Below are positions 6,650-9,957 of a stretch of DNA of 64,000 nucleotides, piece by piece. Origin of the DNA: Mesorhizobium sp. CAU 1732 (GTDB taxonomy: Bacteria > Pseudomonadota > Alphaproteobacteria > Rhizobiales > Rhizobiaceae); contig NZ_JBDQQR010000001.1 in assembly GCF_039888675.1 (NCBI RefSeq), forward strand, positions 2,170,001-2,234,000, written 5' to 3'. The position numbers and the translations under genes are program-made. How positions within the stretch are numbered: position 1 is the first letter of the stretch; each line of letters starts with the position of its first letter. Below the pieces are notes generated by a model. The model had not been told where the DNA came from and searched no databases. It saw nothing but the letters and a program-made list of their open reading frames with translations.

Positions 6650-7177
6650 ATGCCCGCTTACACGCTCGATGGCGTTTCGCCCGAATTGCCTGACGATGGA
6701 TCAGCCTGGATTGCGCCCGATGCGACGCTGATCGGCAAGGTGACGCTCGGCAGCGATGTCGGCGTGTGGTTCGGGGCCGTGCTGCGCGGCGACAACGAGG
6801 CGATCACCATCGGCGCCGGCACGAACGTGCAGGAACATACGGTGATGCACACCGACATGGGCTTTCCACTCACCGTGGGCGAGGGGTGTACGATCGGCCA
6901 CCGGGCGATGCTTCATGGTTGCACGATTGGGAACAACAGCCTCGTCGGCATGGGCGCCATTATTCTCAACGGCGCGAAAATCGGAGAGAACTGCCTCGTC
7001 GGGGCTGGCGCGCTCGTCACGGAAGGCAAGTCGTTTCCGGACAATTCGCTGATCATGGGCGTTCCGGCCAAGGCGGTTCGCACGCTCGACGAGAATGCGA
7101 TCGAGGGCCTCCGGGGATCGGCGCGGCACTACGTGGCCAATGCCAAGCGCTACCGAACCGGCCTCACGCCAGCCTGA
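6650..7177 (+). CDS. Gamma-class carbonic anhydrase-like hexapeptide protein
   Basis: The 175-residue product is a left-handed beta-helix protein of the gamma-carbonic anhydrase/PaaY/YrdA family. Metal-ligand histidines are visible in QEHTVMH and in IGHRAMLHG, spaced as in the family. Homologues are trimeric zinc or iron enzymes, and mitochondrial relatives are complex I subunits in plants. AAGGAGG at 6639-6645 fixes ATG 6650. Whether it hydrates CO2 or acts on a thioester cannot be told here. Confidence 0.9.
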
Positions 7178-7188
7178 CGCGAGGGGCG

Positions 7189-7206
7189 CGATCCGTTAAC
7201 GGATCG
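7189..7206. promoter_or_regulatory. 18-bp perfect palindrome after the carbonic anhydrase gene
   Basis: CGATCCGTTAACGGATCG is perfectly self-complementary. It begins 11 bases after the stop of the gamma-carbonic anhydrase gene and about 75 bases before the LexA-type box. TTCA-N7-TTAACC at 7208-7224, one mismatch from a CtrA box, follows it. It could be a protein-binding site; it is a poor terminator because no T-run follows. Confidence 0.4.
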
Positions 7207-7273
7207 GTTCACCCCCGGTTAACCGCGAAAAAGACGAACGTGCTTCGTGCATGACGCAACGTCGCAAACAGAA

Positions 7274-7302
7274 TTGACGTGAGAACAAAACTGGAACATA
7301 AA
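7274..7302 (+). promoter_or_regulatory. LexA-type SOS box inside a sigma70-like promoter
   Basis: GAACAAAACTGGAAC at 7283-7297 is an exact match to the alphaproteobacterial LexA site GAAC-N7-GAAC. It sits between a -35 like TTGACG (7274-7279) and a weaker -10 like CATAAA (7297-7302), spacing 17. LexA bound here would block the promoter. The next open frame is the 28-residue peptide at 7331. Confidence 0.75.
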
Positions 7303-7330
7303 GGGGCCATAAGAGATACGGGAGATCGAA

Positions 7331-7417
7331 ATGGCTTCTTTCCTTCAGGATGTGTTCTCGCTCGTGTCCATGGGCGCGTTCGTTACGGCAATGGCGCTGC
7401 TGATCGGCGCGATGTGA
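7331..7417 (+). CDS. 28-residue hydrophobic peptide, probably SOS-induced
   Basis: The ORF encodes 28 residues: a short polar start (MASFLQDV) and one membrane-length stretch (FSLVSMGAFVTAMALLIGAM). GGAG at 7321-7324 lies 6 bases before ATG 7331, and the LexA-type box with promoter lies 29 bases further upstream. It ends 2 bases before the convergent ggt stop. Size, topology and LexA control resemble SidA, the 29-residue SOS-induced division inhibitor of Caulobacter that binds FtsW/FtsN; this is a functional analogy, and I do not claim sequence homology. The ORF is too short to be certain from sequence alone. Confidence 0.65.
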   Translation: MASFLQDVFSLVSMGAFVTAMALLIGAM

Positions 7418-7419
7418 TG

Positions 7420-9174
7420 TCAGTCGCCGACGGCCACGCCTTCGCGGCGTGTGTCGGCAGCGCCTTCGAGGCCTGACGGCGTAAATTCGATGCCATGCAG
7501 ACCCGAATTCAGTTCCTTCGCCTCGACCTCGTAGCCAAGGGCCGCGAGGTCTTCCACCAGGTCTTCGGCCGCGGTTCCCAGTTCGATATCGTAGGGACCG
7601 AAGCGGTTGACCATATGCGGCCGCGCGATCGCCGCAGCCATGTCGAGATCCCAGTCGATCAGCCCGATGAGCGTGTTGGCCACATAGGAGATGATGTTGC
7701 TGCCGCCCGGCGACCCCAGCGCATAGCGCGGTTCGCCGTCGAGAAGAACGATCGTCGGCGCCATCGACGATCGCGGCCGCTTGCCCCCCTCGACGCGATT
7801 GGCGACGGGGCCGTCACTGCCGGTTGCCGCGAAGGAGAAATCGGTAAGCTGGTTGTTCAGGAGAAAACCGCCCACCATCAGCCGTGCGCCGAACCCGTTC
7901 TCGATCGAGGACGTCATCGATGCGATGTTGCCGGAATCGTCGACGATGACGAAATGGGTGGTCGCCGGTTGTGACAGGTCGACGCCGTCGATGCGCAGGT
8001 CAGCCTTTTTCCAGGGCGGCTCGCCGGCGGTGACATCGTCCTGGCCGAGCGCGGTCGGCTGTCGGATCAGCGCGCTGCGGCCGGCGAGGTAGTCGGCGTC
8101 GAGAAGGCCTTCCGGCATGTCCACGAAGTCGGAATCGGCCATGTAGCGGTCGCGGTCCGCGAAGGCGAGGCGGGTGGCGTCGCCGATGATGCGCCAGCTT
8201 TCCGGATCGTCCGGGCCGAGCGCGCCGATCTCGTAGGGTTCGACCATGCCGAGAATCTGCCCGATCGTCATCGCGCCGGAGGAGGGCGGTCCCATGCCGC
8301 AGATCTCATGGTCGCGATAGGGAGCGCAGACCGCGTCCCGCTCGACGATCCGATAGTCCTTGAAATCGTTGGCTGACAGCAATCCCGGATTGGTCGGGTG
8401 ATCGCGAACCGCGGCAACGATCGCGTCTGCGATGGGACCCTCATAAAATGCATCCGCCCCGCCGGCCGCCAATGCATCCAGCGTGTCGGCGTAGCTTTCG
8501 TTGATCAACGTGGCGCCGGCTGCGAGCGCCGCGCCATCCGGGCCGTAGAAATAGGCCCTGGTGGACGGTTGGGCGTCGAGCCGGCCCGAATCGGACGAGA
8601 TCAGTCCGGCAAGGCGCGGGGAAACCTTGAAGCCGTCGCGGGAGAGGGTGATCGCCGGCGCAAACAGGTCCGCCCATGGCAGCTTGCCGGCGCGCTCATG
8701 GATCGTCTCCATGAGGCGAGGAACGCCCGGGACCCCGACGGAGCGGCCGCCCACCACCGCATCGAAGAAGCCGAGCGGCTGGCCGTCATCGCCGAGGAAG
8801 AGGTCGCCGGTCGCCGCCTTTGGCGCGGTTTCCCGCCCGTCGAAGGTGGTGACGGTGCGGCTCTGCGCGTCGTACCAGACGAGGAACGCGCCGCCGCCGA
8901 TGCCCGACGATTGCGGCTCGACGAGGCCCAGCGTGGTCTGGACCGCAACCAGCGCATCGGCAGCACTTCCGCCCTGGCGCAGGATGGCGAGCCCGGCCTG
9001 CGCCGCGAGTGGATTGGCGGCGACCACCATGTGTTTTTCGGCGCGCACAAGCCCGCCTGCGCTCGACCCGGCTGCACGCTCCGGCGCCAGCGTGTCGCTG
9101 GCCTGCTGCGACCATGCGGTCGAAGCCGTCGCGAACATCAAGGATGCAGCCAAAAATGTGCGGGTGATGGTCAT
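7420..9174 (-). CDS. ggt: Gamma-glutamyltransferase (glutathione hydrolase)
   Basis: This 584-residue exported Ntn-hydrolase starts with a signal peptide (TRTFLAASLMFATASTAWS). The autoprocessing site is the first Thr of TTHFVIVDD near residue 405, which becomes the nucleophile of the small subunit. The GSPGGSNIISYV oxyanion region and EPQSSGIGGGAFL match the family. It cleaves or transfers gamma-glutamyl groups of glutathione in the periplasm. The position after TTHF is Val, where characterised enzymes often have Ser. ATG 9174 has GAGGAGG just upstream; the frame stays open 45 bases further. Confidence 0.93.
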   Translation of the reverse strand: MTITRTFLAASLMFATASTAWSQQASDTLAPERAAGSSAGGLVRAEKHMVVAANPLAAQAGLAILRQGGSAADALVAVQTTLGLVEPQSSGIGGGAFLVWYDAQSRTVTTFDGRETAPKAATGDLFLGDDGQPLGFFDAVVGGRSVGVPGVPRLMETIHERAGKLPWADLFAPAITLSRDGFKVSPRLAGLISSDSGRLDAQPSTRAYFYGPDGAALAAGATLINESYADTLDALAAGGADAFYEGPIADAIVAAVRDHPTNPGLLSANDFKDYRIVERDAVCAPYRDHEICGMGPPSSGAMTIGQILGMVEPYEIGALGPDDPESWRIIGDATRLAFADRDRYMADSDFVDMPEGLLDADYLAGRSALIRQPTALGQDDVTAGEPPWKKADLRIDGVDLSQPATTHFVIVDDSGNIASMTSSIENGFGARLMVGGFLLNNQLTDFSFAATGSDGPVANRVEGGKRPRSSMAPTIVLLDGEPRYALGSPGGSNIISYVANTLIGLIDWDLDMAAAIARPHMVNRFGPYDIELGTAAEDLVEDLAALGYEVEAKELNSGLHGIEFTPSGLEGAADTRREGVAVGD

Positions 9175-9240: not shown

Positions 9241-9957
9241 CTAGGGGCGCGTCACCTTGCCGAACACCGTCTCGAACGATGCCTTCAGCGCCAGATCATA
9301 ATCCGCCATCGTCACCGGCAGGCCAAGATCGACAAGGCTGGTGACGCCGTAACCGGTTACGCCGCAGGGCACGATGCCGCCGAAATGGCTCAGATTCGGC
9401 TCCACATTGACGGCGATGCCATGCAGGCTGACCCACCGCCGCAGCCTGATCCCGATCGCCGCGATCTTGTCCTCCTGGGGAGAGCCGTCCGGCAACGGCG
9501 GGCGGTCGGGCCGCACGACCCAGACGCCGACGCGGTCTTCACGGCGCTCGCCCTTGACGTTCAAGCTCGCGAGCGAACCGATGATCCAGGCTTCGAGAGC
9601 CGCCACGAAGGCGCGGACGTCCTCGCGACGGCGCTTCAGGTCGAGCATGATGTAGGCAACGCGCTGGCCGGGTCCGTGATAGGTATATTCACCGCCTCGG
9701 CCGGCATCGAAGACCGGAAAGCGCTCGGGCTCGAGCAGGTCGTCGCGATTCGCGCTGGAGCCGGCCGTGTAGAGGGGCGGGTGCTCGACGAGCCAGACGA
9801 GTTCAGGTGCGTTCTCGTTGCGAATCGCCGCGACACGCGCCTCCATCGTCGCCAGCGCGGTCGGATAATCGACCAGACCCGGTTCCACGCGCCATTCGAC
9901 GGGCGGCCCATCCGACAGTGGCAGAAACGACGCGTTTATCTGGTTTCGTTCGAGCAT
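9241..9957 (-). CDS. lipB: Octanoyl-ACP:protein octanoyltransferase
   Basis: The 238-residue LipB carries [20 protein letters not shown] (substrate-binding His), the lysine of [11 protein letters not shown], and the catalytic Cys in [14 protein letters not shown]. It transfers octanoate from ACP to lipoyl domains, the first step of lipoate assembly in the cytosol. ATG 9957 ([11 protein letters not shown]) is the likely start, although the frame is open for 37 more codons. It is divergent from the tRNA-Leu gene. Confidence 0.93.

Follow-up and report, generated by a model that had tools for sequence, protein, structure and literature searches.

SidA of Caulobacter crescentus is described as a 29-aa inner-membrane inhibitor with FtsW as an interaction partner; its effect is relieved by changes in FtsW or FtsI, and FtsW(F145L) and FtsW(A246T) are suppressors (PMC4211646). 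DidA, from the same bacterium, is comparable to the peptide proposed here as a small damage-induced membrane division inhibitor (PMC4211646), but it is SOS-independent (DriD) and binds FtsN. The peptide treated in this work resembles SidA in LexA control, in having a single predicted inner-membrane helix, and in size (28 residues compared to 29).

YneA of Bacillus and SosA of Staphylococcus, which belong to another phylum, are larger proteins. Both are SOS-induced division inhibitors (PMC13396833, PMC6851548), and they are likened to the present peptide by description only. TisB and DinQ of Escherichia coli resemble it in being SOS-induced single-helix peptides. TisB differs in its antisense-RNA control and toxic membrane action. 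DinQ, too, is described as a single-helix SOS peptide with a toxic action on the membrane and control by an antisense RNA (PMC3567139).

The window analyzed here is a stretch of 64,000 nucleotides from the genome of Mesorhizobium sp. CAU 1732. To our knowledge, there is no named SOS effector for division arrest in rhizobia and their relatives. A search of the open-access literature for such an effector in rhizobia found none, and the main text of a small-protein paper on S. meliloti mentions SOS or LexA zero times (PMC10117765). We consider it probable that a 28-residue peptide encoded in the window represents the Hyphomicrobiales branch of the checkpoint family to which SidA belongs, and that it would inhibit the divisome.

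Architecture of the peptide locus

The elements of the locus, all on the forward strand of the window, are as follows.

7274..7279, + strand: -35 hexamer TTGACG, read from the sequence; TTGAC is kept in 8 of 8 genus members
7283..7297, + strand: LexA box GAACAAAACTGGAAC (GAAC-N7-GAAC), between the -35 and -10 hexamers, read from the sequence
7297..7302, + strand: -10 hexamer CATAAA after a 17-nt spacer, read from the sequence and conserved in the genus
7320..7324, + strand: ribosome-binding site GGGAG, read from the sequence
7331..7417, + strand: ORF of a 28-aa single-helix membrane peptide, the proposed SidA-family SOS division inhibitor (stop included)

The ORF starts with the ATG at 7331, ends with the TGA at 7415-7417 and translates as MASFLQDVFSLVSMGAFVTAMALLIGAM. 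Reading of positions 7274-7417 confirmed every element of the initial annotation, namely a LexA box between a -35 and a -10 hexamer, a ribosome-binding site and a 28-codon ORF. The membrane helix assigned to the ORF was also recovered, with a best 19-residue Kyte-Doolittle mean of 2.12 that predicts one helix. A generic sigma-70 scan flagged no promoter at the locus, and therefore the -35 and -10 assignments rest on this reading together with conservation in the genus: when the eight genus members are aligned, the principal conserved stretch before the ORF runs from TTGAC through the box region to a CATA-like element. The predicted 5′ leader of the mRNA is about 20 nt long. The ORF is preceded by a gene for a hexapeptide-repeat protein in the same orientation; the genes after it, on the opposite strand, encode a gamma-glutamyltranspeptidase (ggt) and then a lipoyl-ligase-type protein (LipB-like; all by Pfam).

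Conservation of the peptide and its LexA box

A single-sequence search found the peptide in 8 of 8 genus genomes (own genome included), in agreement with the expectation of the initial annotation that close relatives would keep the ORF, and in 16 of 60 mixed relatives at E ≤ 1. Of 297 genomes of the family, 212 matched a 13-row profile at E ≤ 0.1, weak matches included. We examined 145 loci, made up of the better-scoring profile matches among those listed and the single-sequence matches, and obtained a candidate ORF in 141 (none in L109, L124, L147 and L223); merging of identical peptide-plus-upstream pairs left 139. Where in-frame starts scored equally, the one giving a length nearest to 28 was chosen, which means that the length count is, on the start side, a product of this rule; the LexA box played no part in this choice. 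With that preference for lengths near 28, 128 of the 139 distinct ORFs, among the matches listed, encode exactly 28 aa. Two chance hits were retained in some counts, L015 in both the box and the pN/pS counts and L018 in the box count only.

The peptide sequence is clearly under purifying selection. The pN/pS ratio was 0.19 (95% interval 0.15-0.24) over 51 non-overlapping pairs from a set of 126 sequences that includes the chance hit L015, and 0.24 within the genus alone, which bears out the predicted bias toward synonymous substitution. Over the 51 pairs there were 439 differences at third codon positions, 174 at first and 55 at second positions. Residue D7 is conserved in 123 of 126 peptides and F17 in 124, and 92 of 113 distinct peptides contain neither Lys nor Arg. 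A test for a conserved face along the helix showed no significant face (p 0.07), and no claim of a binding partner is based on it. Comparison of 13 peptides with NCBIfam gave no match at E ≤ 10, and with Pfam a single member matched one unrelated model (best E 0.05).

The window contains one GAAC-N7-GAAC site, relative to 2.04 expected by chance, so that the box count alone is at chance level; a chance box is rejected because the box and the ORF are conserved. The initial annotation had raised the question of whether the box is kept together with the peptide, and it was found that an exact box lies within 90 nt upstream in 117 of the 139 distinct ORFs among the matches listed, with a one-mismatch box in 11 more and no box in 11. 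Dinucleotide shuffles of the same 139 upstream regions had a mean of 0.75 exact boxes (maximum 3), and random 90-mers from the same loci a mean of 0.06 (maximum 1). The box most often begins 48 nt ahead of the ATG. Of the 8 genus members, 4 have an exact box and the remaining 4 a box with one mismatch; in L164, L172 and L173 the boxes are degenerate only. Judged by sequence comparison, rhizobia and their relatives possess a genuine, conserved gene for the peptide.

Using the stricter pattern GAACANWNNNNGAACA, we found 13 matches in the own genome, one of which is the box of the peptide, versus 1 for the reversed control. For 4 of these 13 boxes, the gene behind was compared with Pfam. Three were recognized, as LexA, SSB and a thermonuclease-like (SNase) protein whose gene is at L381:1580-1969 (own genome, C1, near 149063); the fourth gene, without a Pfam match, lies close upstream of a second dnaE-type polymerase and is imuA-like by position. 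Published LexA boxes of Caulobacter have the same form, for example GTTCttgttatGTTC (PMC12700426).

Profile A3 (67 rows, 28 ungapped columns) matched 36 of 249 genomes of the order at E ≤ 0.01, 10 of which were the own genome or members of the same family. Of 20 loci taken from the order beyond the family, 12 show an exact box ahead of the matching ORF, 5 have a degenerate box and 3 are likely chance matches. A class-wide search with A3 matched 2 of 241 genomes, the own genome and one likely chance match. Within the flanks of 80 loci named through the upstream gene there was no peptide ORF scoring at least 38; the whole genomes behind 38 of these loci gave 29 matches, 28 of them convincing on reading of the ORF, whereas the ORF in L309 departs from the family length and lacks a box. 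Carriers include Mesorhizobium sp. J18, Nitratireductor arenosus, Aminobacter sp. AP02, Rhizobium leguminosarum Vaf-46, R. rhizogenes, Martelella limonii, Phyllobacterium spp., a Brucella sp. and Kaistia soli. A plasmid search with one family peptide as query yielded no copy at E ≤ 1.

In eight genomes the SOS copy is accompanied by a second copy of the peptide that has no LexA box (none with up to one mismatch in 90 nt) and whose ATG is no more than 8 nt from the stop codon of the previous gene. These copies are L014, L178, L203, L206, L207, L217, L219 and L312, and their neighbors look like phage early genes. On the viral contig L394, a copy at 9706-9801 is near a RecT-like annealing protein, exonuclease VIII, an HNH nuclease and a DnaB-like helicase (PHROGs; six proteins tested, the peptide itself without a match). 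L394 equals the contig of L206 in length, so that the two are probably the same element, and a second viral contig, L395, encodes a nearly identical peptide. Two patterns run against a viral collection gave 13 stretches, of which 2 are clear and 10 belong to other proteins; the remaining one, L393, is a hydrophobic ORF of 29 aa and doubtful. Among cultured phages, one prophage-type peptide used as query retrieved only a record of an ssRNA phage (E 2).

Position relative to dnaE and the probable link to SidA

The 139 loci were read mostly with about 1.5 kb on each side. In 44 of them, among the matches listed, dnaE (the alpha subunit of the replicative polymerase) lies downstream on the same strand, at a median distance of 209.5 nt between the peptide and the dnaE match. 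Another 56 loci have lolD upstream and no dnaE, and in 40 of these ggt or lipB is opposed downstream. The genus loci have an opposed lipB or ggt downstream of the peptide, and in six of them, including the window, the hexapeptide protein is the upstream gene. The peptide does not stay in cis with dnaE in the own genome or the genus: in the own genome some 56 kb separate it from the dnaE match, which it lies beyond, and in the seven genus dnaE loci read the approximately 600 nt upstream contain no exact LexA box. The order lolD, peptide, dnaE is common and probably ancestral. From these gene orders, the peptide unit is judged to have been rearranged relative to its neighbors more than once with its LexA promoter kept, which argues for a gene of its own. 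It thus looks like an independent SOS gene and not a dnaE leader, and this suggests that LexA boxes before dnaE may serve the peptide gene rather than dnaE. Even in L271, from an order member with a small genome (G038, 1.4 Mb), an exact LexA box and a divergent 37-aa membrane ORF precede dnaE.

A comparable arrangement was found in family f53. The holdfast protein HfaA is present in three f53 genomes, and among 14 control genomes it is found in Caulobacter vibrioides only; f53 is a holdfast-bearing, Caulobacterales-like family. In 26 of 30 f53 dnaE loci there is a LexA box with a hydrophobic ORF of 30-35 aa upstream (24 by script, with L332 and L323 added by eye; 4 loci have none). The peptides are mostly of the W-x-K-D-A-A-A-G type, and in L331 and L342 the unit lies farther upstream, 652 and 1164 nt from the dnaE match. 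Twenty f53 peptides went into profile A4, which matched 41 of 47 genomes of the order of f53 at E ≤ 0.05. A box with a short ORF also precedes dnaE in both loci read of family f52. The set from elsewhere in the class comprised 110 dnaE loci (the best 30 plus 80 chosen favoring larger genomes; 5 without a dnaE start), and a script found a box with a short membrane ORF at 12 of 105 dnaE loci, most having none; two loci of family f58, L410 and L441, were recognized by eye.

Direct comparison of profiles A3 and A4 (hhalign) gave an E value of 0.0015 with a probability of only 16.8%. When the 20 f53 peptides were scored with A3, none beat all 500 of its own shuffles, and 4 were in the top tenth. 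With an order-level profile, 3 of the 20 f53 peptides, both f52 peptides and both f58 peptides beat all 500 shuffles, and the f53 mean was 3.0 versus -0.44 for the shuffles (sd 0.63), a value reached by 0 of 500, in a test that relatedness inflates. A D and an F ten residues apart are common to the window-type and f53 branches. The sequence kinship of the Hyphomicrobiales and f53 branches therefore appears detectable but weak. In other families of the class, LexA-boxed short membrane ORFs stand before dnaE in L408, L411, L436, L480 and L499. Because such ORFs are at most weakly similar to the present family, the pre-dnaE position may host replaced or fast-evolving inhibitors.

In C. crescentus, the published locus numbers are CC1926 for dnaE and CC1983 for recN (PMC1839093), ccna_02062 for recN in the second numbering (PMC12700426) and CCNA_02004 for sidA (PMC10769358). 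The recN offset of 79 would make dnaE CCNA_02005, which by this locus-number arithmetic, not a map, places sidA at or near dnaE. We read the peptide as a member of the SidA family because f53 has a boxed ORF upstream of dnaE and the locus number of sidA is at or near that of dnaE. The proposal in the initial annotation of a Rhizobiales counterpart of SidA thus gains support as to setting, a boxed short membrane ORF before dnaE being found in both Hyphomicrobiales and f53 and agreeing with the sidA locus number; its homology part, judged through the f53 peptides as stand-ins for SidA, is weak. The accompanying statement, that the sequences of small SOS division inhibitors vary from lineage to lineage, may be too pessimistic in the present case, which looks like one old alphaproteobacterial family. 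By locus numbers, the ancestral place beside dnaE is probably shared with SidA, and the window gene differs from SidA in lying far from dnaE. The f53 stand-ins are 30-35 aa and mostly start W-x-K-D-A, whereas the window peptide reads ...QDV-x-SLVS...

Alternative readings and the proposed role

The main rival is an SOS membrane peptide with a target outside the divisome, such as transport, respiration, envelope synthesis or a membrane protease. It would account for the fact that only position, promoter and size class are common to the peptide and SidA, but the nearest characterized gene of the same position and promoter type is SidA, by locus number, and some prophage-like elements carry a copy among apparent early genes, a class of phage genes in which division inhibitors are known; we regard this reading as unlikely. 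A type I toxin of the TisB/DinQ kind, a membrane-acting SOS peptide checked by an antisense RNA, would share the size class, the single helix and the LexA control. TisB mRNA has a structured leader, for which the predicted leader of about 20 nt is too short. The RNA fold of 7305-7480 is not unusual (z -0.51), and a scan of 7100-7600 against the described families of Rfam showed no sign of antisense control, the sole match being far below its gathering score. The usual lack of Lys and Arg and the tight conservation of the sequence, with D7 and F17 nearly invariant, also stand against a toxin, which we consider quite improbable.

Two further readings would deny the peptide a function of its own. 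That the ORF is a leader or upstream ORF regulating dnaE could be suggested by the 44 loci in which dnaE follows on the same strand, but the unit was found far from dnaE with its own promoter in the own genome, lipB or ggt is opposed downstream in the genus, the seven genus dnaE loci read have no exact box in the roughly 600 nt before them, and the peptide sequence is under purifying selection; this explanation is disfavored and hardly credible. That the ORF arose by chance, whether its LexA box is real or likewise accidental, would fit the chance-level box count in the window and is refuted by conservation, pN/pS and the box statistics, which leave it a negligible likelihood.

We therefore favor membership in the SidA family, in which the peptide ORF would be an independent one-gene SOS unit kept off by LexA bound between the -35 and -10 hexamers. 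After DNA damage, LexA would be cleaved and the short mRNA translated into the 28-residue peptide, which is predicted to insert as one helix in the inner membrane. By its kinship with SidA, the peptide would most likely restrain the late divisome (FtsW/FtsI/FtsN) until the DNA is repaired. The ancestral place of the family is probably between lolD and dnaE, and the family probably includes Caulobacter SidA.

A broader reading is put forward tentatively, at somewhat under an even chance. SidA may not be a Caulobacter peculiarity but the Caulobacterales branch of an ancient alphaproteobacterial SOS checkpoint family, once located between lolD and dnaE, easily missed by gene callers and travelling as a self-contained LexA-peptide unit; temperate phages of Hyphomicrobiales would have captured it and would express a LexA-free copy from an early recombination operon to halt host division. 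The peptide is thus a tiny, conserved candidate SOS effector, linked to the best studied alphaproteobacterial checkpoint.
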